DNA of 13,729 nucleotides. Source: Spirochaetaceae bacterium. GTDB taxonomy: Bacteria > Spirochaetota > Spirochaetia > Treponematales > Breznakiellaceae. This document shows, piece by piece, positions 1-13,645 of this stretch; the stretch's first letter is position 1; each line of letters opens with the position of its first letter. Where the stretch lies: positions 1 to 13,729 of the forward strand of contig JAITAM010000149.1 of the NCBI GenBank assembly GCA_031284085.1, written 5' to 3'. The position numbers and the translations under genes are program-made. The notes under the pieces were generated by a model that did no database searches, was not told the DNA's origin, and saw nothing but the letters and a program-made list of their open reading frames with translations.

Positions 1-256
1 CCGGCATATTTTTTTACTGGTGCCGCCGCAAGCTGTACCGTGCCGGCTTCCCCTTTTGTGCAAAACTGTTTTGTGAAAGGCTTGACCATCGGGGCGGTGA
101 AAGGATAGGCGCAGGCGCACACAGTGCGAAGGTTCATGTCTGCGCCGCCGGCATATTTTTTTACTGGTGCCGCCACAAGCTGTACCGTGCCGGCTTCCCC
201 TTTTGTGCAAAACTGTTTTATGGAAGGGCTAACCATCGGGGCGGTGAAAGGATAGG
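1..256. repeat. Two tandem copies of a 109-bp sequence (period 147 bp)
   Basis: Copy 1 is 1-109 and copy 2 is 148-256, separated by a 38-bp spacer; the copies differ at only a few bases. Copy 1 starts at the window edge, so more copies may lie to the left. In both copies one forward frame is open across the copy and ends at the same TAG (106-108 and 253-255). In copy 2 that frame has an ATG at 136, giving a possible 39-residue peptide starting MSAPPAYFFTG and ending TIGAVKG. The base changes give Ala/Thr, Val/Met and Lys/Glu replacements plus synonymous changes. The ATG lacks a well-spaced ribosome binding site (GAAGG lies only about 3 bases upstream), so translation is doubtful. The copies could be duplicated C-terminal gene remnants or an intergenic repeat. 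Confidence 0.85.
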
Positions 257-293
257 GGTTTACGAGTCGGGCTTCTAAACACCCGAACGATCC

Positions 294-333: not shown

Positions 334-1881
334 ATGAAAAAAATCATGGCTTTTATCGTGATTTTTACGACGGCTGTGTCCGCTTTTGCAGGCGGAGACA
401 AACAACAAAGCGGCGGTGCGGGCAAGGGGGCGTTCACAACAACCAACAGCGCCTATGCGGCTTACGATTTGAGTAAGCCGCTGACACTCTATATGTATAT
501 GCTGGGAGACGTTCCCAAAGACATGAACGAGGTCTTGGACAAGGCGAACAAGGAGTATTTCCAGCCCATGCTCAACACCACTCTCAAGCTGGTGTTCCTT
601 GCGTGGTCGGACTACATGACCAAGTATCCGCTCATCTTGGCGGCGGGCGAGAACGTGGATATTATTTTCACCGCACCATGGGCGTTTTACGAGCAGGAAT
701 CGGCAAAAGGCTCGTATTTGGAGTTGACCACCGATTTTATCGCCCAATGGATGCCCAATGTGGCAAAGTCCATGAGTAAAATCGCATGGCAGCAGGCGGT
801 AACCGGAGGCAAAATCTACGGCGTCCCCACGAACTTCTCGGCCTTAAACCACAAACATTACGCCATCCGCGAGGACCTGCGGACCAAACACAATCTGCCC
901 GAACCCAACAGTTGGGACAACCTTGAAAAGTACCTGTTCACCATAGCGGCGAATGAGCCTTCCATTCAGGCTTATGCGGCGGCGGCGGAAGCCCCTGAAG
1001 TCCTGTTCGTCTACCTGAATGCGATGAACGTCTTGGCATCGGGCGAGCCAATCTACTTCGCGTGGAAGAATGTAAACCGCAATGAGCCAAAGCCCGAAGA
1101 GCTGTTTTTCTTGTACACAAGCGATTGGTTCCGCGATTTCTCTTTGGAAATGGCAGAATGGTTCCAAAAAGGCGTGTGGAGCCGAAACGTGATGAACAAC
1201 ACCATAGCGCAAGGGGACTCTTTCACTCAAGGCAAGAGCGCAAGCGTGTTTTGGAACGCCTCCGTATACAGTTTGGGCAAGACAATGGAGGATAACGGCG
1301 TGGGCAAAGCGGGCTACTACGAGGCCAACCCGACCGTTCCCACCCGCAAAGAGAGTTACGACAACAATATGTGGGCTATCACGGCTTTGTCCTCAAATAC
1401 GCAGCGCTCCGCCTTGACCCTCGACTTGATAAAGACCAACCGTGATCTAAATATGCTCCTGCGCGGCGGCATCATCGGAAGGCACTACATCCCCAAAGAG
1501 GCGGGAACCTATGAAAGAGGGGCTGAATCGGACGATTATGTCTTTGACGGCTGGACATGGGCCATGCGTGAAGAGGGCATGAATGAAGTCTACGACACCG
1601 TTCGATATGCCCAACGGTATGCGTTGGATAAATCCACAAGCGCCCGTGCGTTTGAGCCTTTGATAGATGGTTTCCGCTTTGACCGCAAGAAAGTGTCCAG
1701 CGAATGGGCGGTTATCTCCTCGCTTATTGAGGAGTATACCCCCAGTTTTGAGTGCGGCGTTTACGGCAACGACACGCAGGCAAAATTCAACGAATTTAAG
1801 GCAAAATGCGAGGCGGCGGGTCTTAACAAACTCATAACGGAATTCCGCACCCAGTATACGGCATTTTTGAAAAACAATTAG
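334..1881 (+). CDS. ABC transporter extracellular substrate-binding protein, LplA-like (DUF3502 type)
   Basis: A 515-residue secreted solute-binding protein, probably for a sugar or oligosaccharide. Residues 1-19 form a Sec signal peptide (MKKIMAFIVIF...SAFA) with likely cleavage before Gly-Gly. No lipobox cysteine is present, so it would be periplasmic rather than a lipoprotein, unlike B. subtilis LplA. Residues 45-430 resemble a family 1 type binding protein, and the C-terminal ~75 residues (FRFDRKKVSSEWA, EAAGLNKLITEF) match the DUF3502 pattern of LplA-like proteins. The start is set by GGAGGTG at 321-327. No permease genes adjoin it. The next gene on the strand is a family 2 glycoside hydrolase 1.8 kb away, beyond a repeat array, which fits a carbohydrate role. 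The family call is firm; the substrate is unknown. Confidence 0.88.
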   Translation: MKKIMAFIVIFTTAVSAFAGGDKQQSGGAGKGAFTTTNSAYAAYDLSKPLTLYMYMLGDVPKDMNEVLDKANKEYFQPMLNTTLKLVFLAWSDYMTKYPLILAAGENVDIIFTAPWAFYEQESAKGSYLELTTDFIAQWMPNVAKSMSKIAWQQAVTGGKIYGVPTNFSALNHKHYAIREDLRTKHNLPEPNSWDNLEKYLFTIAANEPSIQAYAAAAEAPEVLFVYLNAMNVLASGEPIYFAWKNVNRNEPKPEELFFLYTSDWFRDFSLEMAEWFQKGVWSRNVMNNTIAQGDSFTQGKSASVFWNASVYSLGKTMEDNGVGKAGYYEANPTVPTRKESYDNNMWAITALSSNTQRSALTLDLIKTNRDLNMLLRGGIIGRHYIPKEAGTYERGAESDDYVFDGWTWAMREEGMNEVYDTVRYAQRYALDKSTSARAFEPLIDGFRFDRKKVSSEWAVISSLIEEYTPSFECGVYGNDTQAKFNEFKAKCEAAGLNKLITEFRTQYTAFLKNN

Positions 1882-1991: not shown

Positions 1992-3504
1992 CTTAAAAAT
2001 CCAGTTTGTTGCCTTAAAAATCCAGACGGCAGCGTTAAAAATCTAGGCGATTGGAGCAAAAATCCAGACGGCGGCCTTAACCGTCTAGTTGGCGGCACTG
2101 GAAATCTAGGTGGCGGCCTTAAAAATCTAGACGGCGGCTCAAAAAGCCCGACTGGTACCTTAAAAATCCAGACGGTAGCGTTAAAAATCTAGACGGTGGG
2201 AGCAAAATCCTGACGGCGGCATTGAAAATCTAGTTGGTGGCATTGAAAATCTTGTTGGCCGCACTGGAAATCTGGACGGTATCCTTAAAAATCCAGACGG
2301 TAGTCTCAGAAATCCAGTTGGCGGCCTTAGAAATCCAGACGGTTGCTTTGAAAATCTAGGCGGTGGGACTAAAAAGCCCGGCAGCGAAATTAAAAAACCT
2401 GACAGCGGTACTAAAAAGCCCGACAGTGGCACTGGAAATTTGGACAACGGGATTAAAAATCCAGACTGCGGCACTAGAAGTTTGGACAGCGGGACTGAAA
2501 ATCCAGACAGTAGAGCTGGAGGTTTGGGCAATGGGACTAAAAAGCCCGACAGCGGCATTAGAAGTTTGGACAGCAGAGGCAAAAAGCCTGACAGTGGAAA
2601 TGGAAGTTTGGACAGCAGGACTAAAAAGCCCGACAGCGGCACTAGAAGTCTGGACAGCGGGACTAAAAAGCCCGACAGTGGAAATGGAAGTTTGGACAAC
2701 AGGACTAAAAAACCCGACAGCGGCACTGGAAGTTTGGAAAGCAATGCTAAAAATCCAGACTACGGCATTAGAAATTTGGACAGCGGGACTAAAAATCCAG
2801 ACAGTGGAAATGGAAGTTTTGACAACAGGACTAAAAAGCCCGACAGCGGCACTGGAAGCCTAGACAACGGCGTTAAAGGTCTAGACGGCAATGCTGAAAA
2901 GCCCGACTGCGGCATTAGAAATTTGGACAGCGGGACTAAAAAGCCCGACAGCGGAAATGGAAGTTTGGACAGCAGAGGCAAAAATCCAGACAGCGGAAAT
3001 GGAAGTTTGGACAGCGGGATTAAAAATCCAGACAGTGGAAATGGAAATTTGGACAGCAGCATTAAAAATCCTGACAGCGGAAATGGAAGCCTAGACAGCA
3101 GGACTAAAAATCCAAACTGTGGAAATGGAAGTTTAGACAACGGGATTAAAAAGCCCGACAGCGGAACTGGAAATTTGGACAGCGGGACTAAAAAGCCCGA
3201 CAGCGGCACTGGAAGCCTAGACAACGGAGTTAAAGGTCTAGACGGCAATGCTAAAAATCCAAACTGTGGAAATGGAAGTTTGGACAACAATGCTAAAAAA
3301 CCCGACTGCGGAACTGGAAATTTGGACAGCGGCACTGGAAGCCTAGACAACGGAATTAAAGGTCTAGACGGCAATGCTGACAAGCCCGACAGCATCACTG
3401 AAAGTTTGGACAGCGGGACTAAAAAGCCCGACAGTGGCACTGGAAGTTTGGGAAGCAACAGCAAAGGTTTGGACAGCAATGCAGAAAAGCCCGGCAGCGG
3501 TGCA
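1992..3504. repeat. Array of about 72 21-bp units (array 1)
   Basis: The region is built of 21-bp units. From 2371 to 3504 there are 54 units in perfect register, mostly alternating between type A (AAAAAGCCCGACAGCGGCACT-like) and type B (GGAAGTTTGGACAGCGGGACT-like), which gives a 42-bp higher order. Type A occurs in two linked forms, ...AAGCCC... or ...AATCCA.... Upstream units (1992-2370) are more diverged, and two are 20 bp long (near 2132 and 2203). The array is open on several frames of both strands. The longest forward frame (to a TAA at 3568-3570) contains no ATG anywhere and begins only after the second 20-bp unit, and neither strand has a ribosome binding site. The translation would be a heptad-like (KKPDSGT)(GSLDSGT) protein. 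A non-coding array is more likely than a gene. Confidence 0.9.
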
Positions 3505-3626
3505 GCCCAAACAGGGTTTCAGTCAGACCTTAGAGATGCAAATATAAAACAGTTCAAAAAAAATAGATAACTATGATACGTCCGCTCAGACCAAAAAGAA
3601 AATTAGCCTGAGCGCCTGTTTGAAAC

Positions 3627-3687
3627 GCTCTCAAAATTGGGTGAAAAAGAAAAAATTGAGAGCATAAGCCCGCCTAAAGACGGGTTT
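3627..3687 (+). terminator. Two hairpins between array 1 and the hydrolase gene
   Basis: GCTCTCAA (3627-3634) pairs with TTGAGAGC (3656-3663). It is followed at once by AAGCCCG (3667-3673) pairing with CGGGTTT (3681-3687), with one G-T pair. Only a short T stretch follows the second stem. They may end transcription coming from the array, or form the leader structure of the hydrolase mRNA. Confidence 0.4.
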
Positions 3688-3714
3688 CTAATACTTTATA
3701 AGGAGTTCTAAGTT

Positions 3715-6126
3715 ATGAATGAAACCGTGAGAACCTGCGTTAGTTTTAATGAAGCATGGAGGTTTTGCTTGGGAGACGATGGGGCTTATGCACAAGCCGA
3801 CTTTGATGATGAGGCATGGAAAACAGTAACCCTCCCGCACGATTGGGGAATGGATTACCCTTTGAATAAAGAAGCGCCCTGCGGCGGGGGCGGCGGTTAT
3901 GCAGTAACGGGCGTTGGCTGGTACCGCAAGACTTTTGACGCACCGCTTCTCCCAAAACATCGCAACAGCATGATTCAATTTGACGGGGTCTATATGAATT
4001 CTACCGTCTTCCTGAACGGAGTTGCAATAGGCGGCCGACATTACGGCTACAGCGAATTTACCGTTGACCTTAAACAACAGCTTCTTGAAGGGAAAAATAC
4101 CATTGCCCTGCGGGTTGACAATTCCATGCAGCCCAATTCCCGCTGGTATACCGGCTCAGGCATATACCGGAACGTCTGGCTCCTTGGTTTTAACACCGTC
4201 CATATTGATAATCACGGAGTCTTTGTCATTACCAACGGCTTATATGAGCATAAAAAGAAAGCACGGCTGCAAATACAGTGCTGGATTAGAAACGAAAGCA
4301 CGGAAAATGTTGATGTCGGCGTGGAACAACACATTTTTGACGCACAAGGAAAGACGGTGCTTAAAGACGCCTCCGCGCTGCACGTAAAAGCCGGCACGGC
4401 CGCCTTGACAATGGTGATGCCGACTGTGGAAGAGCCGATTTTGTGGACTGACAAAAACCCTTATCTGTACACTGTGGAGACTGTCTTGGTGCAAAAAGGC
4501 GCGGTTGTCGACCAATGCAGCACGCGTATCGGTATCCGCACGGCGGCCTTTGACTGCGACAAAGGTTTTCTGCTCAACGGCGAACAGGTCAAGATAAAAG
4601 GTATGTGCGTCCACCATGACGGCGGCCTTACCGGCGCGGCCGCTTACCCGGACACATGGAAACGCAGGCTTACCCTGCTTAAAGACATGGGTTGCAACGG
4701 CATCCGCTGCGCGCACAACCCGCCTGCCCCGGAGTTACTCGATATTTGCGATGAGTTGGGCTTCCTTGTGATGGATGAAGCTTTTGACGAATGGCTTTTG
4801 TCCAAATTCAAGAGCGCGGATTACGGATACAGCCGCACTTTTACCTATGGAGGAAGCCAGTTTTTTGCCAATGACGGAGAGGCCGACCTCATCACCATGC
4901 TGCGCCGGGACCGCAACCACCCCAGCGTTATCCTTTGGAGCATTGGCAACGAGATTCTTGAACAATCCGCCTTAGAAGGCTTAAAAGTACTGCGGCGCTT
5001 GCAGCATATCTGCCATCAAGAAGACCCGAGCCGCCTTGTATGCAGCGCGTGCGATAATATCGCCGCCCCGCAAGCCTATCGCACGCAGGAAGATTTTGAA
5101 AACTCTCTTGATTTGGTAGGCTACAATTACACGGGACGATGGGGCATCAGAGCGGAAACCCTCTATGATGAGGATAGGAAGAAATACCCCAGCCGCCGCA
5201 TGATAGGCTCCGAGAATCCTTCTGCAGGAGGGCTGCGGGGGAACTATGAACCCGTCTTGGGCTCTGAATTCCTCCAGTCCGGCTATGATACCATCACTTT
5301 GGCGCACGAATTCCTCTGGCGTTATACGGCAAGCCGTGATTTTGTAGCCGGCGATTACCTGTGGACCGGCATAGACTACTTAGGGGAATCCTGTTGGCCC
5401 CTGAAAGGAGCGCCTTCAGGCCCTCTTGATACCGCAGGTTTTCCGAAAGACACCTTCTATTACTTCCGCAGCATCTGGAACGATGAGGCGTTTACGCTGC
5501 ACATCCTTCCGCATTGGAATTGGGTGGGAAAAGAAGGGAAATTCATCACGGTCATAGGCTATACCAACTGCGAGGAAGTGAGTCTTTACCTAAACGGCCG
5601 CTTAGTCGGCACTAAGGGCTACGATTTCCCCAATGTGGGCGCGACGAAAGCATGGAACATCAAGACGAAAATAACCAAGCCCACGACGCACGATCTGCAT
5701 CTGTGCTGGGATTTGCCTTTTGAGGCGGGAGAACTTAGGGCGGTGGGACGCGCCAACGGCAAGGTCGTTAAAGAAGTGGTGGTTAAAACCACCGGCGCCC
5801 CTTTCCGCCTTAATGCGGCTGCGGATAAAGAGGCCATAAACCTCCATGCAATAGCCCACATTGAGATTTCGACTACGGACGAAGAGGGTCTTTGGGTGCC
5901 TGATGCACAGTTGCCCATAAGCGTTAGTCTTGAGGGCGGCATAGCCTTATTGGGGCTTGACAACGGCGATCTGCAAGACATGAGTCCCTTTTACGGCCCG
6001 CGCCGAAGGCTTTATGCAGGGAGGCTTTTATGTGTTATTCGTGGAATGAGCCAAGGGGCGGCGCGGGCGACCATTCATGCGGAGGGCATGAACGATATAG
6101 CGCTCCCATTCACGGTTCAGGTCTGA
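3715..6126 (+). CDS. Glycoside hydrolase family 2 protein, beta-galactosidase-like
   Basis: An 803-residue retaining glycosidase of the multi-domain GH2 type, probably a beta-galactosidase or related exo-glycosidase. No signal peptide is seen, so it is likely cytoplasmic. Domains: jelly-roll sugar-binding domain (about 5-165, with LPHDWG and GVGWYRK), Ig-like domain (170-275), TIM barrel (280-585), then two C-terminal Ig-like domains of the DUF4982 / GH2 C5 kind (LLGLDNGD near the end). The barrel shows GIRCAHNPP, DEAFDEW, and RDRNHPSVILWSIGNE with the acid/base Glu at residue 413. The likely nucleophile is Glu500 in RMIGSENPS. The start is supported by AGGAG at 3701-3705. The stop TGA lies inside a dispersed palindromic motif (6118-6130). 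The family is certain; the exact substrate cannot be read from sequence. Confidence 0.93.
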   Translation: MNETVRTCVSFNEAWRFCLGDDGAYAQADFDDEAWKTVTLPHDWGMDYPLNKEAPCGGGGGYAVTGVGWYRKTFDAPLLPKHRNSMIQFDGVYMNSTVFLNGVAIGGRHYGYSEFTVDLKQQLLEGKNTIALRVDNSMQPNSRWYTGSGIYRNVWLLGFNTVHIDNHGVFVITNGLYEHKKKARLQIQCWIRNESTENVDVGVEQHIFDAQGKTVLKDASALHVKAGTAALTMVMPTVEEPILWTDKNPYLYTVETVLVQKGAVVDQCSTRIGIRTAAFDCDKGFLLNGEQVKIKGMCVHHDGGLTGAAAYPDTWKRRLTLLKDMGCNGIRCAHNPPAPELLDICDELGFLVMDEAFDEWLLSKFKSADYGYSRTFTYGGSQFFANDGEADLITMLRRDRNHPSVILWSIGNEILEQSALEGLKVLRRLQHICHQEDPSRLVCSACDNIAAPQAYRTQEDFENSLDLVGYNYTGRWGIRAETLYDEDRKKYPSRRMIGSENPSAGGLRGNYEPVLGSEFLQSGYDTITLAHEFLWRYTASRDFVAGDYLWTGIDYLGESCWPLKGAPSGPLDTAGFPKDTFYYFRSIWNDEAFTLHILPHWNWVGKEGKFITVIGYTNCEEVSLYLNGRLVGTKGYDFPNVGATKAWNIKTKITKPTTHDLHLCWDLPFEAGELRAVGRANGKVVKEVVVKTTGAPFRLNAAADKEAINLHAIAHIEISTTDEEGLWVPDAQLPISVSLEGGIALLGLDNGDLQDMSPFYGPRRRLYAGRLLCVIRGMSQGAARATIHAEGMNDIALPFTVQV

Positions 6127-6145
6127 CCTGTTTTTGCGGCCGCAA
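6118..6145 (+). repeat. Dispersed motif CAGGTCTGACCTGTTTTTG plus a 12-bp palindrome
   Basis: CAGGTC-T-GACCTG (6118-6130) is an interrupted palindrome, followed by five T and then by the palindrome TTGCGGCCGCAA (6134-6145). The hydrolase stop codon is inside the motif. Near-identical copies occur at 13139-13157 and 13262-13280, with weaker ones at 12961-12977 and 13116-13134. Confidence 0.7.
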
Positions 6146-6183
6146 GTTGGTCTATTTAACATTTTCGGCGCACAAATAATCAG

Positions 6184-7122
6184 GGCAGCTCAGGCATTAT
6201 AGCGTGTACCGTTCCCGGCGCAAGAGTAAAGCTAACCATTAAAAAGCTTCCGGCAGGCTATAAGCAAGGCAGGTTAGGCATTATACTGAGTACCGTTCCC
6301 GGCACAGAAGCGAGGCTAACCATTGAGAAGCTTCCAGTGAACTATAAGCAAGGCAGCTCAGGCATTATACCGTGTACCGTTCCCGGCACAGAAGCGAAGC
6401 TAACCATTGAGAAGCTTCCGGTGAACTATAAGCAAGGCAGGTTAGGCATTATACTGTGTACCGTTCCCGGCGCAGAAGCGAAGCTAACCATTAAGAAGCT
6501 TCCGGTGAACTATAAGCAAGGCAGCTCAGGCATTATACCGTGTACCGTTCCCGGCACAAGAGTAAGGCTAACCATTAAGAAGCTTCCGGTGAACTATAAG
6601 CAAGGCAGGTTAGGCATTATACCGTGTACCATTCCCGGCGCAAGAGTAAGGCTAACCATTAAGAAGCTTCCGGTGAACTATAAGCAAGGCAGCTCAGGCA
6701 TTATACCGTGTACCGTTCCCAGCACAGAAGCGAAGCTAACCATTAAAAAGCTTCCGGTGAACTATAAGCAAGGCAGGTTAGGCATTATACCGTATACCGT
6801 TCCCGGCGCAAGAGCGAAGCTAACCATTAAGAAGCTTCCGGTAGGCTATAAGCAAGGCAGCTCAGGCATTATACCGTGTACCGTTCCCGGCGCAGAAGCG
6901 AAGCTAACCATTAAAAAGCTTCCGGCAGGCTATAAGCAAGGCAGGTTAGGCACTATACCGTGTACCGTTCCCGGCACAGAAGCGAAGCTAACCATTAAAA
7001 AGCTTCCGGCAGGCTATAAGCAAGGCAGCTCAAGCATTATAGCGTGTACCGTTCCCGGCGCAGAAGCGAAGCTAACCATTAAAAAGCTTCCAGTGAACTA
7101 TAAGCAAGGCAGGTTAGGCATT
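6184..7122. repeat. Array of about eleven 84-bp units in strict register (array 2)
   Basis: The landmark AAGCTT recurs eleven times at exactly 84-bp spacing, from 6244 to 7084, with no indels. Units alternate strictly between GGCAGCTCAGGC and GGCAGGTTAGGC at the same position (6184, 6268, 6352 ... 7108), so the true period is a 168-bp dimer. Each unit holds a GAAGCT...AGCTTC inverted pair (for example 6396-6401 with 6413-6418). One forward frame is open from 6160 to the TAG at 7273-7275 and would read NYKQGSSGIIPCTVPG..., with the only usable start a GTG at 6337 lacking a ribosome binding site. It also runs four bases into the convergent folE2. The call is a non-coding array; an unusual repeat protein cannot be fully excluded. 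Confidence 0.92.
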
Positions 7123-7157
7123 ACCTCTCAACTAAGCCTAGCGTTCAGCCTAAACAA

Positions 7158-7271
7158 GAAGCTATACTCCGCCTTTGATACAAAGCCGAAGCTTAGGAAC
7201 AGGCTGGCCTGCGAGAAGCTGTACTCCGCCTTTGATACCAGTGCCGAAAGCTTAGGAACAGCCTATGGCTG
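7158..7271. repeat. Two direct copies of a 57-bp repeat at the end of array 2
   Basis: Copies begin GAAGCTATACTCCGCC at 7158 and GAAGCTGTACTCCGCC at 7215, and both continue TTTGATAC ... AAGCTTAGGAACAG. A related copy (TCCGCCTTTGATATCAATGCCG) lies at 13060-13081, 5.8 kb away. The second copy ends at the folE2 stop codon. Confidence 0.8.
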
Positions 7272-8051
7272 TTAGCCTTTCTCTCCCCGATATTCCGTAT
7301 AGGCAAAGGCATTGTGTTTGTGAATACTCTCATAAGTCTCCGCCTCCACTGAAAAATAGGGAAACTTCTTTAAGTCCCGTATTCTGGTATAAACGTCGCG
7401 GACAATGTCCTCAACAAACTTGGGATTATCATAAGCCGCTTCCGTAACATACTTCTCGTCTTCCCGCTTCAAAAGCGAGTAAACCGGACTCGATGCACAT
7501 TCCTCCACTATGGCAATAATATCCTCAATCCAAAAAAACGGCCCCAATTCCACAGTAACGGTAACTATACCCCGCTGGTTATGAGCGCCCCGGTTGCTTA
7601 TCGCCTTGGAACACGGACAGACCGTTGTAATAGGCGCCGAAATAGTAACGGTAAACTGCCGCCCGCCGCTATCCACCCGCCCTTGATATTGGCACTCGTA
7701 GGACATCATGCTCATAAGGCCGGAAACCGGCGCTGCTTTCTCTATAAAAAAAGGAAACCTTACCTGCCCAAAAGTCGATTCCGCTCCCAGCGCGCTTCGC
7801 ACCTGTTCCAGCATATCCAAAAACCGGTGCATAGATATATTTTCACGGTAGCGGTGAAAAACTTCTATGAACCGGCTCATGTGCGTCCCCTTAAAACACG
7901 GCGGCACATTAGCATAGAGATCAACCTGCGCTGTCGTATACTGGACTTTTTTCACTTTATCCAGCACGCAGATCGGGTATTCAAGCCCTTTCACCCCTAC
8001 TTTGAGCAAGGCTACCTCACGAGTGTCGCTTTGACTTTGTAGATCTATCAT
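7272..8051 (-). CDS. folE2: GTP cyclohydrolase FolE2 (type IB)
   Basis: A 259-residue protein of the metal-dependent FolE2 / MptA family. It converts GTP to 7,8-dihydroneopterin triphosphate, the first step of folate synthesis and of queuosine-type deazapurine synthesis. The start at 8051 gives MIDLQSQSDTREVALLKVGVKG, the usual FolE2 opening. A TTG 84 bases upstream would add a basic, non-homologous tail and is rejected. The motif TTVCPCSKAIS carries Cys147, the expected catalytic/metal ligand. AHNQRG (His157), the acidic KREDEKYVTE segment and His246 in SIHKHNAFAY fit the other active-site positions, and the length is typical. No good ribosome binding site precedes the ATG. The gene is divergent from livJ and is a single-gene unit here. 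No Zur box was recognised. Confidence 0.93.
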   Translation of the reverse strand: MIDLQSQSDTREVALLKVGVKGLEYPICVLDKVKKVQYTTAQVDLYANVPPCFKGTHMSRFIEVFHRYRENISMHRFLDMLEQVRSALGAESTFGQVRFPFFIEKAAPVSGLMSMMSYECQYQGRVDSGGRQFTVTISAPITTVCPCSKAISNRGAHNQRGIVTVTVELGPFFWIEDIIAIVEECASSPVYSLLKREDEKYVTEAAYDNPKFVEDIVRDVYTRIRDLKKFPYFSVEAETYESIHKHNAFAYTEYRGEKG

Positions 8052-8081
8052 ACGATGAGCATATAGAAAAAATGAATACAA

Positions 8082-8115
8082 AAGAAGGCGGCAAAAAGAC
8101 AGCCGCCGCCTTCTT
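8082..8115 (-). terminator. Perfect 11-bp hairpin in the folE2 leader
   Basis: AAGAAGGCGGC (8082-8092) pairs perfectly with GCCGCCTTCTT (8105-8115) around a 12-base loop. Read leftward, the second arm runs into TTTTG and a T-rich stretch, so it has the form of an intrinsic terminator or attenuator about 30 bases before folE2. Rightward there is no T run. Confidence 0.5.
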
Positions 8116-8140
8116 GACGCAGGAGAGCGCCTCAAGCCTG

Positions 8141-8193
8141 TTGACTAGGATTTAGTTTTTCTCTAAAGTTTATACTATCGATATTTAAGGAGG
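8141..8193 (+). promoter_or_regulatory. livJ promoter and ribosome binding site
   Basis: TTGACT (8141-8146) lies 17 bases before TAAAGT (8164-8169); TATACT at 8171-8176 is a better -10 but is badly spaced from this -35. AAGGAGG (8187-8193) is a near-perfect ribosome binding site seven bases before the ATG at 8201. Confidence 0.5.
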
Positions 8194-8200
8194 AATTGTT

Positions 8201-9361
8201 ATGAAACAATTACTAATATTTGCGGCGTTGGTTACCGCGCTTATGGCGCCGGTTTTTGCACGAGGCGCTCAAGAGTCAGGTACAGCCGGTAATGTTATCA
8301 AAATCGGTGTCTTTGAGCCTTTGACCGGAGCAAATGCGGCGGGCGGCGCTATGGAATTAGAGGGCATACGGCTTGCTAATGAGCTTTATCCAACGGTAAC
8401 CATTGGGACCACTACCTACAAAATAGAGCTTGTGGTGGCGGATAATAAGTCTGATAAAGTTGAGGCGGCTAATGCGGTGCAGCGCCTTGTCGACTTGGAT
8501 AAAGCAACAGTCCTACTTGGATCATGGGGTTCTTCTCTGGCAATGGCAGGCGGTGAAGTGGCAAAAGAGGCTCAGGTGCCGGTCATCGGATTGTCATGTA
8601 CCAACCCTCTTGTAACTGCCGGTAACGACTATTATTTCCGTGTCTGTTTTATCGATCCGTTTCAAGGAACCGTTATGGCAAACTATGCTTTTAGCGAAAT
8701 TCCTGCACGGACCGCCGTATTAGTACGGGAAGTGTCGAATGATTATTCGGTTGGGCTTGCCAAATTCTTTGGCGATACCTTCAAGAGTCTTACCAAAAAC
8801 CCCAATGCCATCCTTGCAACGGTTGATTACAACACAGGCGATCAGGACTTCAGCGCTCAATTAACGGCAATCAGCACGCTCAAACCAGATGTTATCTTTG
8901 CGCCGGGTAACTACACCGAATCCGCTCTCGTTATGAAGCAGGCGCGTGAGCTGGGACTGAATATACCGTTTTTAGGCGGCGATACGTGGGAAACCCCTGA
9001 ATTCATTGATGTAGGACGCGAGCGGGTTGAAGGCGCTGTGTTCTCAACCTTCTTTGCATCAGAATACGCTGCCAATCCGGTTGCAGAAACCTTCTTGAAA
9101 GAATACCGGGCGCGGTATAATAAAGAACCTGCTGCGGTTACAGCCCTTGGCTATGACGGGTATCTTGTTGCTCTTGATGCTATCAAACGTGCCGGATCCA
9201 CCGATCGGCAGAAGATCCGCGATGCTATTGCTAAAACTTCAGGGTTTGAAGGAGCTGCCGGCACCGTAACGCTTGATGCCAACGGCGATGCTACCAAGAG
9301 CGCCTTTATTAAAACGGTACAAGGCGGAAAGTTCGTATTTAAGACTATTGTTAATCCATAA
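8201..9361 (+). CDS. livJ: Branched-chain amino acid ABC transporter substrate-binding protein (LivJ-like)
   Basis: A 386-residue periplasmic binding protein of the Peripla_BP_6 (type 1 fold) family. Residues 1-20 are a Sec signal peptide (MKQLLIFAALVTALMAPVFA), cleaved before Arg-Gly-Ala-Gln; no lipobox cysteine is present. The mature start NVIKIGVFEPLTGANAAGG is typical of LivJ/LivK, as are VLLGSWGSSLAMAGGEVA (ligand loop), KPDVIFAPGNYTE and ALGYDGYLVALDAIKRAGS near the C-terminus. It is the first gene of a livJH unit, 75 bases before livH, separated by alternative hairpins that could let livJ be expressed above the permease. Members of this family also bind amides, urea or aromatic acids, so branched-chain amino acids are only the default ligand. 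The start is fixed by AAGGAGG. Confidence 0.9.
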   Translation: MKQLLIFAALVTALMAPVFARGAQESGTAGNVIKIGVFEPLTGANAAGGAMELEGIRLANELYPTVTIGTTTYKIELVVADNKSDKVEAANAVQRLVDLDKATVLLGSWGSSLAMAGGEVAKEAQVPVIGLSCTNPLVTAGNDYYFRVCFIDPFQGTVMANYAFSEIPARTAVLVREVSNDYSVGLAKFFGDTFKSLTKNPNAILATVDYNTGDQDFSAQLTAISTLKPDVIFAPGNYTESALVMKQARELGLNIPFLGGDTWETPEFIDVGRERVEGAVFSTFFASEYAANPVAETFLKEYRARYNKEPAAVTALGYDGYLVALDAIKRAGSTDRQKIRDAIAKTSGFEGAAGTVTLDANGDATKSAFIKTVQGGKFVFKTIVNP

Positions 9362-9365
9362 ACTT

Positions 9366-9400
9366 CGGTATTGTCCGGCATTGTTAGTCAATACCGGACA
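9366..9400 (+). promoter_or_regulatory. Alternative intercistronic hairpins between livJ and livH
   Basis: CGGTATTG (9366-9373) can pair with CAATACCG (9389-9396), or TGTCCGG (9372-9378) with CCGGACA (9394-9400). The two stems overlap and exclude each other. The position is typical of structures that protect the upstream message or reduce transcription of the downstream gene. No T run follows. Confidence 0.5.
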
Positions 9401-9436
9401 TACAGTCTGTCCATTGATTAGTGTGGAGTAAGCGCA

Positions 9437-10330
9437 ATGACCATCGCTCTTTTTTTACAGTATTTAACCAATGCTCTTTCCTTAGGAAGCCTTTATGCGC
9501 TTATTGCCATCGGTTATACTATGGTTTACGGTATCCTGCGGCTTATCAATTTTGCCCACGGCGATATATTCATGCTGGGAGGTTATATAGCTTTCTACTG
9601 TATGACCCTTCTCATTATGCCGTGGTGGGCGGCTTTTATCGTTTCGCTGGGGCTTACCGGATTGTTTGGTGTGTGTTTGGAACGGGTAGCATACCAGCCG
9701 TTACGCCATTCACCGAAGATTTCTATTATGATCAGCGCCATCGGCGCATCGTTTTTAATGGAAAACCTCGCCACGGTTATCTTCGGCGGCCGCCCCAAAG
9801 GTTTTATAGTGCCTGAGATATTTAACCAGATTGTGCATATAGGCAGTATTTCCTTCGTCAACATCAGTCTTTACATTCCGGTAATAACCGCAGTTCTCTT
9901 AGTGGTATTGCTTGCCATTGTCCAGAAAACAAAAACTGGTATGGCAATGCGGGCTGTGTCAACGGATCTTGCCGCTGCCCGACTTATGGGTATAGATGTA
10001 AACCGGGTTGTTTCTTTTACGTTTGGTATCGGATCCGTTCTTGCAGCTATTGGAGGCATTATGTGGTCTTTGAAATACCCACAGCTCAACCCGACTATGG
10101 GCATGATTCCGGGACTCAAATGTTTTATCGCTGCGGTCATAGGCGGCATTGGCAATATTGCCGGTGCGGTGCTTGGCGGCCTCCTTCTGGGTTTTATTGA
10201 AATTATGCTCATAGCTTTCCTGCCGACCTTAACCGGTTACCGCGATGCTTTTGCTTTCATTCTCCTTATCATCGTCCTTTTAGTAAAACCATCCGGTCTT
10301 TTAGGAAAGCATCAAATCGAAAAAGTATAA
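9437..10330 (+). CDS. livH: Branched-chain amino acid ABC transporter permease, LivH family
   Basis: A 297-residue inner-membrane permease. The opening QYLTNALSLGSLYALIAIGYTMVYGILRLINFAHGD is the LivH signature, and later parts (RAVSTDLAAARLMGIDVNRVVSFTFGIGS, AAVIGGIGNIAGAVLGGLLLG) match the cytoplasmic coupling region and C-terminal helices. About eight hydrophobic segments are visible. The length is normal, with no truncation. GGAG at 9425-9428 precedes the ATG by eight bases. It should pair with a LivM permease and LivG/LivF ATPases, but none follows: the next gene is a polysaccharide deacetylase with its own promoter. The protein may use partners encoded elsewhere, or the cluster has been split. 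Confidence 0.92.
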   Translation: MTIALFLQYLTNALSLGSLYALIAIGYTMVYGILRLINFAHGDIFMLGGYIAFYCMTLLIMPWWAAFIVSLGLTGLFGVCLERVAYQPLRHSPKISIMISAIGASFLMENLATVIFGGRPKGFIVPEIFNQIVHIGSISFVNISLYIPVITAVLLVVLLAIVQKTKTGMAMRAVSTDLAAARLMGIDVNRVVSFTFGIGSVLAAIGGIMWSLKYPQLNPTMGMIPGLKCFIAAVIGGIGNIAGAVLGGLLLGFIEIMLIAFLPTLTGYRDAFAFILLIIVLLVKPSGLLGKHQIEKV

Positions 10331-10343
10331 GGCGTATAAAATA

Positions 10344-10440
10344 TCCCCAAGCACCAAGAGCCTTCCCTTAGGGGACAAGCACACGGCTATAAGGGCGCTG
10401 TTAAGCTTTTTGCTCTTTCATCTTCACAGCACTCTTTTAT
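10344..10440 (+). terminator. Weak terminator region after livH
   Basis: TCCCCAAG (10344-10351) pairs with CTTAGGGGA (10367-10375) with one bulged A but no T run. A second imperfect stem (GCGCTGT 10395-10401 with ACAGCAC 10426-10432, one mismatch) is followed by TCTTTTAT. Either could end the livJH transcript. Confidence 0.35.
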
Positions 10441-10451
10441 CGAGTTATACT
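10423..10451 (+). promoter_or_regulatory. Sigma-70-like promoter of the deacetylase gene
   Basis: TTCACA (10423-10428) and TATACT (10446-10451) are separated by exactly 17 bases. Transcription would begin near 10458, only about eight bases before the ATG at 10466, where no clear ribosome binding site exists. The mRNA may therefore be almost leaderless. Confidence 0.6.
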
Positions 10452-10465
10452 AGAAGCCAAAGATT

Positions 10466-11464
10466 ATGAAGAAATTAAACGGTCGGGATCAGTCTCTTGT
10501 ATTGGTAATGACCATACTATTTTTAATTGCTCTTATCGTAAGTTTTTTCGCTTTCTTTATAGGGTACATGGCGCCGTCTCTTCAGATAAAGCAGACGGCC
10601 TCTGCAACGGATCTGCCGGTGCAGGAGATTCCGCTCAAAATACCTGAGCCGCCGCCTCCCCTTCCTCAAGCCGAAGCTTTGCCGGAGCAGAAACCGGAGC
10701 CGGAACAGGAATTCAAGACGGAAACGGTAACCGAACCGGTTTTTTATCCACAAGCGCCCGAATCTGAAAGAGCGGTTTTTGTAGACCCTCCGTCAAAACA
10801 GCAGGTTGCTCAGGGAACTTTGATCGTTGTTATTGATGATGCCGGCAATAATTTGACCGATATAGAACCCTTTTTACGTTTTCCCGGCAGATTGACTATT
10901 TCGGTATTACCCGGCCTGCCTCATTCAGCAGAAGTGGCGCGGCGTGTTCGTGCGGCAGGTAAGGAAGTGTTTTTGCACCAACCTATGGAGGCCATAGGGG
11001 GACAGAACCCCGGGCCGGGCGCTTTGTATACCGGCATGACAAGTGCAGAGGTTCGGCAAATTCTCGAACAGAACTTACGAGAGCTGTGGCCTGTAGCGGG
11101 GATAAACAACCACGAAGGGTCAAAAATAACGCAGGATGAAAGTATTATGGAAACGGTACTCGAAGTATGCCGTGAATGGGGAATAGTTTTTTTAGACTCG
11201 CGCACGATAGCGACAAGTGTTGTGCCTGCTTTGGCACGGCGAGAGGGAATGGATATTGCCGAACGGGATATATTTTTGGATAACAGTTCCGATAGAGAGT
11301 ATATTCTTAACCAGCTTAAAGAAGGTATGCGCAAAGCTAATCGCACAGGGTCTGTTATTATGATAGGCCATACTCGGACTAAGGCATTGGCGGCGCTCTT
11401 AAACGAGTTTTACTCTAACCTTGTCGATGACGGGTATCAGTTTTCTATTATAAACAGCCGGTGA
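10466..11464 (+). CDS. Divergent polysaccharide deacetylase family protein (YibQ-like)
   Basis: A 332-residue membrane-anchored envelope protein. It has a short cytoplasmic tail, one membrane helix (about 11-35), and a Pro/Glu-rich periplasmic linker (55-100, with EPPPPLPQ and KPEPEQE). The catalytic domain (115-332) is of the divergent polysaccharide deacetylase family related to NodB. Visible motifs are VIDDAGNN (Asp124/Asp125), ISVLPGLPHS, FLHQPME (His171), INNHEGS (His216), FLDSRT (Asp244), DIFLDNSSD and IGHTRTKA (His302). The family is thought to act on cell-wall glycans; no substrate has been read from sequence here. It appears to be transcribed alone from the promoter at 10423-10451. 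Family assignment is firm; whether it is enzymatically active is not shown. Confidence 0.9.
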   Translation: MKKLNGRDQSLVLVMTILFLIALIVSFFAFFIGYMAPSLQIKQTASATDLPVQEIPLKIPEPPPPLPQAEALPEQKPEPEQEFKTETVTEPVFYPQAPESERAVFVDPPSKQQVAQGTLIVVIDDAGNNLTDIEPFLRFPGRLTISVLPGLPHSAEVARRVRAAGKEVFLHQPMEAIGGQNPGPGALYTGMTSAEVRQILEQNLRELWPVAGINNHEGSKITQDESIMETVLEVCREWGIVFLDSRTIATSVVPALARREGMDIAERDIFLDNSSDREYILNQLKEGMRKANRTGSVIMIGHTRTKALAALLNEFYSNLVDDGYQFSIINSR

Positions 11465-11843
11465 AATGCAGCAATTACACCCTCCTCTATACGTGAGAGG
11501 CGAGAGACCATCGCACCATGGGATAAAACTCTTATCGTGTGTCAAGTAGTCGCTTTATTTTGGTATGAGAGTGTTTCATTTTAGCAAATGAGCGACTCAT
11601 TGTGGCTTGATTTTTTATTCCAACAAGTCAAGTAGTTTATTCACGATAATTGCCGTTTGTATGACAACCAAATGCTCAAGCCAAAAATGGATCGTCTGAA
11701 TTCACCAATTTTTGCTTTCGTGTGCGTCCAAGGGTCTGTGGACAAGAGTCATCAAAATAAAATTATTGAGTAAATCATCGCTCATCTCCTATGCAAATCT
11801 TTCAGCTTTCCTGCAAGTAACTGTAATTGTATCTTACAACAAC
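11465..11843. other. Non-coding interval with a small inverted-repeat-bounded segment
   Basis: No gene is supported in this AT-rich stretch. TTATCGTG (11532-11539) and its exact reverse complement CACGATAA (11642-11649) bound a 118-bp segment that carries two direct copies of GTCAAGTAGT just inside the ends (11541-11550 and 11627-11636). AGTCGCT (11548-11554) can also pair with AGCGACT near 11590-11596. It could be a decayed miniature element or a terminator region after the deacetylase. Confidence 0.35.
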
Positions 11844-11876
11844 TTCTTGACAAATTTTTGTCAAGAATTCTATAAT
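11844..11876 (+). promoter_or_regulatory. Consensus promoter overlapped by a 24-bp palindromic operator
   Basis: TTCTTGACAAA (11844-11854) and TTTGTCAAGAA (11857-11867) form a perfect inverted repeat around two T. The left arm contains a consensus -35, TTGACA (11847-11852), and a perfect TATAAT follows at 11871-11876 with an 18-base spacer. A dimeric repressor bound here would block the -35, which suggests autoregulation of the downstream regulator. That gene is now broken, so another copy of the regulator may still use the site. Operator identity is inferred. Confidence 0.7.
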
Positions 11877-11900
11877 CATTTAAAAAATGAGGAGAATAAA

Positions 11901-12606
11901 ATGAAAAAACTCGAAAAGAATCATAGCGATTATTATGTTCATGCTTAGGCATAAACAGGTTTCCGCTCAAAAACTTGCTCAAATGTTCAACATATCTCTC
12001 AGGACCATATACCGGGACGTGGAAACGATTGACCATGCCGGAATTCCTCTGTTTTCTACACCGGACCTCATGATGGTTATGGGATTGTTAATAAGTACAG
12101 AATAGAAAAAGGACTTTTCACTACCGGTGACATAATCATTGTGTTGACCGCGCTTATGGGTAGGTACACAATCCGCCCTTAACAATAAAGACATCGTTAA
12201 TGTTATTGTAGAAATAAAAGGGCAGCTTACCGAAGAAGAATTCGATAGAATTCGATAGCATTGAAGAAAAAGCGCGGCAAGTAACCATTGGCTATACACC
12301 GTGGATCGGAACGGAAATGCTCAGGGTTGATATTGAAGACATAATTACTGCCATCAGAGATGAACGTTTATTGGAGATCGTGTATACAAACTATTCCGGC
12401 AAATCAAGCAAGCGACAAGTTGAGCCATACTGGTTGTTTTTGAAAAGCGCGGATTGGTATCTTATTGCCTTTTGTTTATATAAGCGAACGTTTAAGATTT
12501 TCAAATTATCCCGTATTACTGTCTTGAAATATTGGATGAGATATTTGAAGTCCGGGATTGTGATTTCGAAATGGAGCGGGAGAAAAGCAGCCCAAAAAAT
12601 AGATAA
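11901..12606 (+). pseudogene. Decayed YafY-type HTH/WYL-domain transcription regulator
   Basis: Joined across frames, the product is a DeoR/YafY-like helix-turn-helix protein with a C-terminal WYL domain. N-terminal fragments include HKQVSAQKLAQMFNIS and LRTIYRDVETIDHAGIP (winged HTH). The middle reads DGYGIVNKYRIEKGLFTT, and the C-terminal part includes DERLLEIVYTNYSGK and SADWYLIAFCLYKR (WYL). Five lesions are visible: an extra A in the run at 11914-11917, a shift near 12062-12071, a two-base loss near 12160, a perfect 10-bp tandem duplication (12238-12247 / 12248-12257), and a one-base loss near 12521, after which the restored frame reads LEILDEIFEVRDCDFEME and ends at TAA 12604-12606. GGAG (11891-11894) precedes ATG 11901. 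The 101-residue open frame at 12317-12622 is only a fragment of this gene. Confidence 0.88.
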
Positions 12607-12642
12607 GATTTCAAAGCATTAAGATTTTTTTGTAATGCCGTG

Positions 12643-12676
12643 GCGGTTAGGCACGAAACTGCCTACCGCTTATTTT
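12643..12676 (+). terminator. Intrinsic terminator after the WYL pseudogene
   Basis: GCGGTTAGGCA (12643-12653) pairs with TGCCTACCGC (12660-12669) with a single bulge and a six-base loop, followed directly by TTATTTT (12670-12676). Confidence 0.65.
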
Positions 12677-12730
12677 AATAACCTACTTTTTATTCCAAAA
12701 ATATTAGAATACATTGCATATAATGTTCCG

Positions 12731-12920
12731 GCTGTATATGCTTCGCCACTGAAGGCTTTGTGTCCGGTTATAAGGGTCTACTGGCAGGCGGGCGGCGGGG
12801 CAGAGTGAAGTATGCATAATTTGCATGGGAGCGAAGTCGTAGATCGACCGACCTAGCAAAACCGTAGCCTGAGCCGGCTGCGAAGCGTAAACAGTCCCGT
12901 TATGCGAAGTATGGCTCTTT
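12731..12920 (+). ncRNA. Candidate structured RNA or recombination-site-like element
   Basis: A GC-rich island of about 180 bases sits between AT-rich flanks. ATGCTTCGC (12738-12746) pairs with GCGAAGTAT (12904-12912) with one G-T pair, as a possible closing stem. Inside are GCATAA (12814-12819) with TTATGC (12900-12905), an alternative to the closing stem, GGGA (12827-12830) with TCCC (12895-12898), GTCG/CGAC (12836-12839 / 12845-12848) and CGTAGCC/GGCTGCG (12863-12869 / 12876-12882). TATAAT (12719-12724) precedes it and CTCTTTTT follows, as expected for a small transcript; no -35 is evident. GCGAAG occurs three times. No known RNA family was recognised. The GCATAA...GTTATGC ends also recall integron attC sites, but the match is loose. 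Confidence 0.3.
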
Positions 12921-12960
12921 TTACAATATTTTTTATAATGTTTTACTAAATAGTGGACCA

Positions 12961-13280
12961 GAGGTCTGATCTAGTTCATGGCGCTGCTAAGTAGTACCGC
13001 ATTGGAACAGACTGGCTTATGTTCCCTGTTCTGCTTCTATCAAGCAAAAAGCTTGTATGTCCGCCTTTGATATCAATGCCGCAGCCTGTTTTAGGCTGCG
13101 GCTACTTTTGCTTTGGAGGACTGACCTGTTCTGGGTTAGAGGTCTGACCTGTTTTTGAGCGGGAGGTCTCAGCCGCAGGCTGTTTCAAAGCAGGCACAGC
13201 CTGTTTCAAAGGTTGTTGTAACGGGAGAAGGGTACGGCTTTTTGCCTGCAAGAAGCAAGGTGAGGTCTGACCTGATTTTG
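12961..13280 (+). repeat. Cluster of GGTCTGACCTG-type dispersed motifs
   Basis: Copies lie at 13139-13157 and 13262-13280 (18 and 17 of 19 bases the same as the copy at 6118-6136), with weaker copies at 12961-12977 and 13116-13134. The last copy ends eight bases before array 3. The rest of this gene-free interval holds AGGCTGTTTCAAAG / AGCCTGTTTCAAAG direct copies near 13176-13219 and nothing recognisable as coding. Confidence 0.6.
13049..13102 (+). terminator. Dispersed repeat copy followed by a perfect 10-bp hairpin
   Basis: TCCGCCTTTGATATCAATGCCG (13060-13081) is the third copy of the repeat seen at 7168 and 7225. It runs into GCCGCAGCCT (13078-13087) paired with AGGCTGCGGC (13093-13102) around GTTTT, then TACTTTTG. 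The shape is terminator-like, though no gene lies just upstream. Confidence 0.5.
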
Positions 13281-13288
13281 TGGAGGAT

Positions 13289-13645
13289 GGCTTTTGACTC
13301 ATTCGGGACGGCTTTTGACTCATTCGGGACGGCTTCTGACTCATTCGGGACGGCTTCTGACTCATTCGGGACGGCTTCTGACTCATCCGGGACGGCTTCT
13401 GACTCATTCGGGACGGCTTTTGACTCATTCGGGACGGCTTTTGACTCATTCGGGATGGCTTTTGACTCATCCGGGACGGCTTTTGACTCATCCGGGATGG
13501 CTTCTGACTCATCCGGGATGGCTTCTGACTCATCCGGGATGGCTTTTAAGTCGCGGGGAACGGCCCGCAACTCGCGGGGAATGGCCCGCAACTCGCGGGG
13601 AATGGCCCGCAACTCGCGGGGAATGATCCGCAAGCCCGCTTGAAA
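13289..13645. repeat. Seventeen 21-bp units of two classes (array 3)
   Basis: Twelve units of GGCTTTTGACTCATTCGGGAC type (13289-13540) pass without a register change into one hybrid unit (13541-13561), three units of GGCCCGCAACTCGCGGGGAAT type (13562-13624) and one diverged unit (13625-13645). All are 21 bp. The second class carries a CCCGC/GCGGG mini-hairpin in each unit. Changes inside the first class are mainly T/C at two fixed places (TTTTG/TTCTG, ATTCG/ATCCG) plus GGAC/GGAT. Frames on both strands are open because the period is a multiple of three; none has a credible start, so no gene is called. Confidence 0.92.

Follow-up and report, generated by a model that had tools for sequence, protein, structure and literature searches.

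Non-coding tandem arrays with preferred 21- and 23-bp units near REP-like palindromes in a treponeme-like spirochaete

The window analysed here is a stretch of 13,729 bp that forms one contig (C200; JAITAM010000149.1) of the genome of a Spirochaetaceae bacterium (G000; 1.78 Mb in 247 contigs, 67.6% complete), and it carries several tandem arrays between its genes. We propose that these arrays are non-coding minisatellites of gene junctions, amplified at sites of a palindrome resembling repetitive extragenic palindromic (REP) elements, in a genome with multiplied genes for the REP-associated tyrosine transposase (RAYT), a reading to which we give roughly even chances. The arrays were found outside genes, with dyad-rich units, preferably of exactly 21 or 23 bp, and an excess of longer units at multiples of 21 bp; they cluster with the palindrome, the RAYT genes are expanded, and a relative has the matching junction free of arrays.

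Tandem Repeats Finder confirmed the three arrays, with units of 21, 84 and 21 bp, that a preliminary description of the window had reported. Array 1 (1992 to 3470, plus strand, the end being an estimate) consists of about 70 diverged 21-bp units, the later part with a 42-bp higher-order structure, and was returned by the program as overlapping arrays of period 21 and multiples of 21 from 1992 to 3451. Its base identity was 0.564 at a lag of 21, against 0.21–0.28 at lags of 18–20 and 22–25, and the phase of the commonest GAC made two 1-bp shifts before about 2200 and was constant thereafter up to about 3470; with an identity of 0.901 at lag 21 in array 3, the register is indeed kept, as had been claimed. 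Array 2 (6176–7123, plus strand) contains 11.3 copies of an 84-bp unit with an 89% match, in which the variants AGCTCAGGC and AGGTTAGGC alternate. Its AAGCTT (HindIII) sites are spaced at 84 bp between 6244 and 7084; the one after these, at 7189, follows at the 105 bp described earlier. Array 3 comprises 12.5 copies of the 21-bp unit GGACGGCTTTTGACTCATTCG (array 3a, 13285–13547, plus strand) and 4 copies of the 21-bp unit TCGCGGGGAATGGCCCGCAAC (array 3b, 13551–13633, plus strand). Direct reading added a fourth array at positions 1–258 (plus strand), the end of a 147-bp (7 × 21) repeat in 1.75 copies. Arrays 1, 2, 3a and 3b satisfy the definition of a minisatellite (at least 4 tandem copies of a 10–200-bp unit). 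A clustered regularly interspaced short palindromic repeats (CRISPR) array was considered and rejected, the units standing head to tail without unique spacers.

Related arrays occur elsewhere in the same genome, on contig C209 (L152) for array 1 and on contig C195 for array 3b, and contig C68 carries the 84-bp unit again, in the opposite orientation and with up to 95% identity. A DNA search did not find the 84-bp unit in the 57 relatives, and a protein search gave weak, stop-broken matches in two of them. Array 3-like DNA was found in 12 of the 58 genomes, our own included, all 12 within the family.

To compare unit lengths, Tandem Repeats Finder was run on 60 contigs of the source genome (about a quarter of it) and on samples of its relatives. 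The samples came from 34 of 35 family members (1.23 Mb in all with the source genome) and from 17 genomes of outside lineages (324 kb); for many genomes one stretch was scanned. Short-unit arrays, defined by a unit of 15–30 bp and at least 2.8 copies, numbered 89 in the family samples and 2 outside the family. The periods of the 89 were 21 bp (35 arrays), 23 bp (27), 24 bp (9), 22 bp (7) and 18 bp (6), with 19 bp (2), 25 bp (2) and 27 bp (1) rarer and 20 bp absent. When the units were clustered by similarity, with the three window units added, 47 families were obtained with modal periods of 21 (24 families), 23 (15), 18 (4), 22 (2) and 24 bp (2). The 22-bp deficit (at most 2 of 41 families) has a p value of 1e-5 under equal chances for 21, 22 and 23 bp. 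Indels were likewise fewer in 21-bp (1.71%) and 23-bp arrays (0.81%) than in those of 22 bp (4.14%) and 24 bp (3.44%). These two comparisons, like the dyad, A/T-periodicity and open-frame tests below, took a single representative from each family. Arrays of the palindrome family ranged from 18 to 25 bp, and a search for a motif common to all 21-bp or all 23-bp units gave nothing clearly above the shuffled maximum. These data show that 21 bp is a genuinely preferred length, with 23 bp as the second.

Longer units pointed to the same number. Exact multiples of 21 made up 17 of the 55 periods above 30 bp (2.6 expected), namely 13 of 36 in the source genome, 4 of 7 in the congeneric genome G001 and none of 12 elsewhere; the relatives' arrays in these counts were not filtered for genes. 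With families collapsed, 11 of 30 long periods were multiples of 21 (p 7e-8 against 1/21), and the excess persisted among the 23 that are multiples of 3 (p 1e-4). Distances between 13-mers, a count that overlaps the arrays behind the long-period count and so is not independent of it, fell on multiples of 21 in 96 of 418 cases (19.9 expected), on multiples of 23 in 51 (18.2) and on multiples of 24 in 33 (17.4). Identity at a shift of 21 was at most 30% in 15 of the 17 multiple-of-21 units and reached 42–48% in two (L040 and the 42-bp unit of L072). The 84-bp unit gave 23 of 84 matches at this shift (shuffled mean 20.7, standard deviation 3.9) and matched itself best at a shift of 42 (32 of 84). 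It thus has no internal 21-bp repeat, and its description as 4 × 21 holds for the arithmetic of its length only. The period histogram upheld one part of the proposed 21-bp quantum, the excess of 21 and its multiples (in the source genome and in G001), and not the other, a single quantum, as the distribution has another sharp peak at 23 bp. The arbitrary periods that had been named as speaking against a quantum are also present in part, since 27 of the 89 short-unit arrays have neither 21 nor 23 bp, 20 of the 55 long arrays belong to a single cluster of scattered periods around one dispersed element, and multiples of 21 are lacking among the 12 long periods outside G000 and G001.

The arrays are concentrated outside genes. 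None of the 58 arrays of 21–24 bp in our sample of the source genome lay inside a called gene, the gene finder being a crude one that scores codons with the arrays masked, so that a repeat-only gene would escape it. Ten arrays of other periods were genic (8 of them multiples of 3, one with a period of 42) and were excluded from the long-period counts. Counting satellites of at least 4 copies with units of 10–200 bp, we obtained densities of 121.6 per Mb for the source genome, 174 for G001 and 70 for G002, and 0–17 for G029, G030, G036 and G044; contig C68 was left out of these densities because it had been selected for its array-2 copy. The source genome is estimated to hold a couple of hundred non-coding arrays. 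The expansion is a patchy one at the level of the lineage and is not specific to one genus: within the window's genus, dense short-unit arrays are frequent in G000, G001 and G002 but scarce in G003, and G006, from a different genus, has them too. G003, which has many Y1 transposase matches and few other arrays, carries an 18-bp array of 43 copies (L084, 3229–4008).

Comparison with relatives suggested that the junctions of the window have been enlarged by arrays. A gene for an extracellular solute-binding protein (SBP_bac_1/DUF3502 in Pfam; 334–1881, plus strand) lies upstream of array 1, and a glycoside hydrolase family 2 (GH2) gene (Pfam; 3715–6126, plus strand) follows it, with a gap of 1833 bp that contains array 1; the gap between the preceding permease gene and the solute-binding protein gene contains the 147-bp array. 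The matching operon of a Treponema sp. bin (L207) has gaps of 15 bp and 84 bp at these two places, and in L191 the GH2 gene is separated by 19 bp from a more distant solute-binding protein gene (28% identity). The 147-bp unit combines the final ~55 bases of the ABC permease gene that lies upstream, with its stop codon, and the ~90 bp that follow, and therefore represents ordinary sequence duplicated in a step of 7 × 21 bp. The permease gene with 3.4 copies of the unit forms the end of contig C83 (L069, 10595–11101). Contigs C83 and C200 are probably neighbours, because the same permease-derived array ends both. Perfect 7-bp repeats of ~118–121 bp were seen at further contig ends (L143, 1–118; L158, 1–120; L164, 1779–1899; L048, 9274–9391); the heptamers differ among the four, 7 is a third of 21, and these repeats are probably assembly breaks in longer heptamer arrays.

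The palindrome GGTCWGACC occurred 207 times in 436 kb of the source genome, compared with 0–8 times for 11 control palindromes of the same composition. Of these copies (about 47 per 100 kb), 149 lay in arrays, 56 in other non-coding DNA and 2 in genes. Its core, AGGTCWGACCT, has 11 bp, where REP elements measure 20–40 bp (PMC3733652). Neither a GTAG nor a CGTC tag was found within 25 bp on each side of 60 non-array copies (consensus aaaacaGGTCAGACCTc), and we use the name REP-like, not REP, because this tag is lacking. In the window, exact copies (GGTCTGACC, all plus strand) stand at 6120–6128, overlapping the GH2 stop codon 47 bp before array 2, at 13141–13149, and at 13264–13272, 12 bp before array 3. 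A degenerate copy with one mismatch (AGTCAGACC, 3521–3529, plus strand), which could be due to chance, follows array 1 by about 50 bp. Arrays that lack the palindrome themselves were within 200 bp of one in 25 of 40 cases, compared with 13% or 20% of random non-coding positions. The palindrome recurred in G002 (23 copies in 71 kb) and was absent from G001, which has instead 89 copies of GGTCTGTCC in 104 kb, with 9 of 12 arrays within 200 bp of one (32% at random). Further, the same side of the palindrome faced the array in 28 of 38 pairs no more than 100 bp apart (source genome sample and window; not all pairs are independent), and in the window it was the same side at arrays 1, 2 and 3.

A second dispersed element, of ~50–77 bp, is also present. 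It was traced by GGCAAAAAGCCGTAC, of which 57 of 58 copies were non-coding, and by the palindrome CAGCCNNNGGCTG, with 77 copies compared with none for three controls. Pieces of it occupy 7130–7271 of the window (plus strand, limits set by eye), with CAGCCNNNGGCTG at 7259; related stretches lie on contigs C209 and C109, and copies near arrays 2 and 3 stand at 7259, 13170 and 13232. This element often forms short tandem arrays of scattered period (L014, 5115–5256; L039, 74–316; L044, 7600–7834).

All three proteins submitted to the NCBIfam RAYT profile (NF047646) passed its cut-off of 80 bits, with 88.7, 99.6 and 89.5 bits. At E values up to 0.001 the profile had 49 matches in the source genome, although this is only 68% complete, with 23 above the cut-off among the matches listed. 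Among the 39 family genomes drawn, to which G000 belonged and G001 and G003 did not, G002 had at least 75 matches, G025 28, G015 15 and the other 35 between 0 and 9; in G015 and G025 the matches are thus numerous outside the window's genus. The broader Y1_Tnp profile gave 34 matches in G000, 33 in G001, at least 95 in G002 and 46 in G003. RAYT loci or fragments were within 200 bp of the palindrome in 12 of 15 sampled cases, compared with 15% of 260 genes. The palindrome stands 46 bp upstream of the RAYT gene in L016, L021 and L060, and a 63-bp array lies upstream of three RAYT genes (L016, L053 and L060).

From these positions, and from the co-occurrence of arrays and transposase genes in some genomes, we infer a role of the transposase in the origin of the arrays. 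Tandem duplications would begin at or beside a palindrome, where RAYT or replication may leave a nick or hairpin; the arrays would then lengthen locally via slippage or unequal exchange and be retained since gene junctions tolerate them, and the preference for 21 and 23 bp would be a property of the amplification step and not of codons. Several results weigh against this reading. The distance between palindrome and array edge is variable (4–98 bp in pairs up to 100 bp apart), only the degenerate palindrome stands beside array 1, and clustering in G002 was weak, with 2 of 4 arrays within 200 bp (32% at random) and none of 4 within 100 bp. Moreover, RAYT number alone predicts little, as five genomes show. 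The congeneric G003 combines 46 Y1 matches with 1.7 arrays per 100 kb, and 20 kb of G025 contained no array, although this genome has 28 RAYT matches. Conversely, 5 RAYT matches accompany a density of 75 satellites per Mb (from 3 satellites in 40 kb) in G006, which belongs to a different genus, and G008 and G028, both incomplete genomes, carry array-3-like repeats with no RAYT match. Nor is any RAYT activity known to us that would account for 21 or 23 bp. A stronger form of the proposal is a sequence-blind amplification machine with a ruler, which at RAYT-processed REP-like palindromes would copy adjoining DNA, even the ends of genes, in steps of exactly 21 bp, a multiple of 21 bp or 23 bp, and would thereby produce at least 100 arrays per Mb between genes; we regard this as unlikely.

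Four other explanations were weighed against amplification at REP-like sites. Ordinary replication slippage on hairpin-prone DNA, with palindromes and RAYT genes merely sharing tolerant non-coding space, is possible, if rather doubtful. It accords with the dyad symmetry of the units, whose mean best stem score was 4.28 compared with 3.55 in shuffles, scores of at least 5 being reached by 19 of 47 families against about 6; the 147-bp array, derived from an ordinary gene 3' end, suggests that an array can start without a REP-like unit, and the uncoupling of RAYT number and array density across genomes points the same way. However, slippage does not account for the clustering around palindromes above random non-coding positions in G000 and G001 or for the orientation preference of 28 to 10, and in its simple form it does not readily explain why 21 and 23 bp are common and 22 bp is rare. 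Helical phasing, in which selection for protein binding, curvature or packaging favours two-turn units, seems decidedly improbable; the preliminary description had named it, beside a replication or recombination mechanism with a fixed step, as better than coding. The commonest unit of 21 bp and the excess of its multiples would suit it, but the sharp mode at 23 bp would not, and the data did not bear it out: odd multiples of 10.5 bp showed no enrichment, a value of 10 or 11 modulo 21 being found for 5 of the 55 long periods where 5.2 are expected, and half-unit A/T periodicity was absent from the 23 families of 21 bp (p 0.37). Because the units fall into 47 families, no common binding site was seen outside the palindrome family. 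That the arrays are an artefact of assembly is scarcely credible: five contigs stop in perfect repeats of 7 or 21 bp that span ~118–121 bp, which suggests that short-read assembly is interrupted at such places and that copy numbers may be underestimates, but arrays 1 and 2 have diverged units and unique flanks, and like arrays occur in separate genomes of the family.

The remaining explanation, that the arrays encode heptapeptide-repeat proteins or are what is left of such genes, is very improbable. In its favor, an open reading frame (ORF) of 376 codons with a unique C-terminal tail runs through array 1, and one of 312 codons through array 2; these ORFs begin at TTG 2440 and GTG 6337, and the earlier statement that start codons are lacking was therefore incorrect, translation being otherwise without support. 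Seven-residue repeats distantly similar to the array-1 ORF were found in 10 of the 58 genomes, our own included. The array-2 ORF exceeded the whole-protein Pfam cut-off for Ig_2 and for a VEGFR Ig-like family; an assignment as Ig-like was rejected, the matches looking like repeat artefacts because no single stretch passes. No Pfam family was assigned to the ORF of array 1 or to that on the minus strand of array 3, and the plus-strand array-3 ORF had only a sub-cut-off phage-tail match. The variants of arrays 1 and 2 gave no sign of purifying selection in one reading frame: in the ORF frames 17 of 57 were synonymous in array 1 (24% expected) and 4 of 23 in array 2 (27% expected), and no frame of either array had a significant excess. 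In array 3a two frames reached p 0.01 on 3 variants only, and one of them has a stop in each unit; the test, which scores each variant once, is weak for array 3. Several frames are open on both strands, which a period divisible by 3 would lead one to expect, and the number of open frames per 21-bp unit (4.13) was close to that in shuffled units (3.95). The 23-bp arrays are nearly as common as those of 21 bp and cannot be codon multiples, and they therefore count against coding. Together with the location of the arrays outside called genes, these results agree with the earlier impression that they are non-coding.

The source can be regarded as a treponeme-like spirochaete because the nearest named relatives of its GH2 protein belong to a Spirochaetia bacterium (68% identity, L191) and to Treponema sp. 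bins (62%, e.g., L207), bins of a kind that we take to be of termite-gut origin. The window further encodes FolE2 (minus strand), a Liv-type binding protein with a permease, and a divergent polysaccharide deacetylase. Reading by eye suggested a broken regulator of the helix-turn-helix (HTH)/WYL type over several frames at ~11900–12620, likely a pseudogene, and an Rfam scan of the window found no RNA family at the gathering score.

Bacterial gene junctions are usually short. In this genome the short-junction rule and the rule that RAYT genes are single-copy are both broken, and unit length is non-random (21 and 23 bp, hardly 22). If the length preference stems from an enzyme or from replication geometry, the system would be a tractable bacterial model of minisatellite birth, a process mostly studied in eukaryotes.

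Titles and abstract beginnings in the open-licence literature showed nothing on 21-bp arrays or multiplied RAYTs in treponemes. Two constituents of the picture are known already: tandem REP clusters (PMC3116915, PMC3733652) and non-coding satellites (PMC6749651). As in the systems of REP elements, bacterial interspersed mosaic elements (BIMEs) and REP doublets forming hairpins (REPINs) with RAYT, a short, extragenic, high-copy palindrome adjoins RAYT genes (NF047646) here too; unlike them, the treponeme palindrome has no GTAG or CGTC tag. RAYTs are described as single-copy, vertically inherited and domesticated in PMC8049555, whereas dozens of copies are present here. Tandemly reiterated REPs have been described (PMC3733652), and the REP clusters of Pseudomonas fluorescens SBW25 have next-neighbour peaks at 71, 110 and 184 bp (PMC3116915), whereas most palindrome-adjacent arrays of our genome are built from different units, whose length is mainly 21 or 23 bp exactly. 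Chloroflexus aurantiacus resembles it in its dispersed short tandem arrays, based on the heptamer (GATAGRA)n (PMC6749651), and a few 7-bp arrays occur here also. Among spirochaetes, Leptospira interrogans has dispersed non-coding satellite families of 37, 46 and 69 bp (Subirana and Messeguer 2019, PMC6749651), which, like ours, extend throughout the genome and of which 46 and 69 are multiples of 23. In contrast, units of 21–24 bp dominate here, whereas L. interrogans is reported in that paper to have no short-repeat satellites, and the densities of G000 (122 per Mb) and G001 (174 per Mb) exceed the values of up to 23 in bacteria and 89 in archaea in its Table 1, a rough comparison given the different software. 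The density of the arrays, the sharp preference for two unit lengths, the long units at multiples of 21 bp and the dozens of RAYT copies thus appear to be new.

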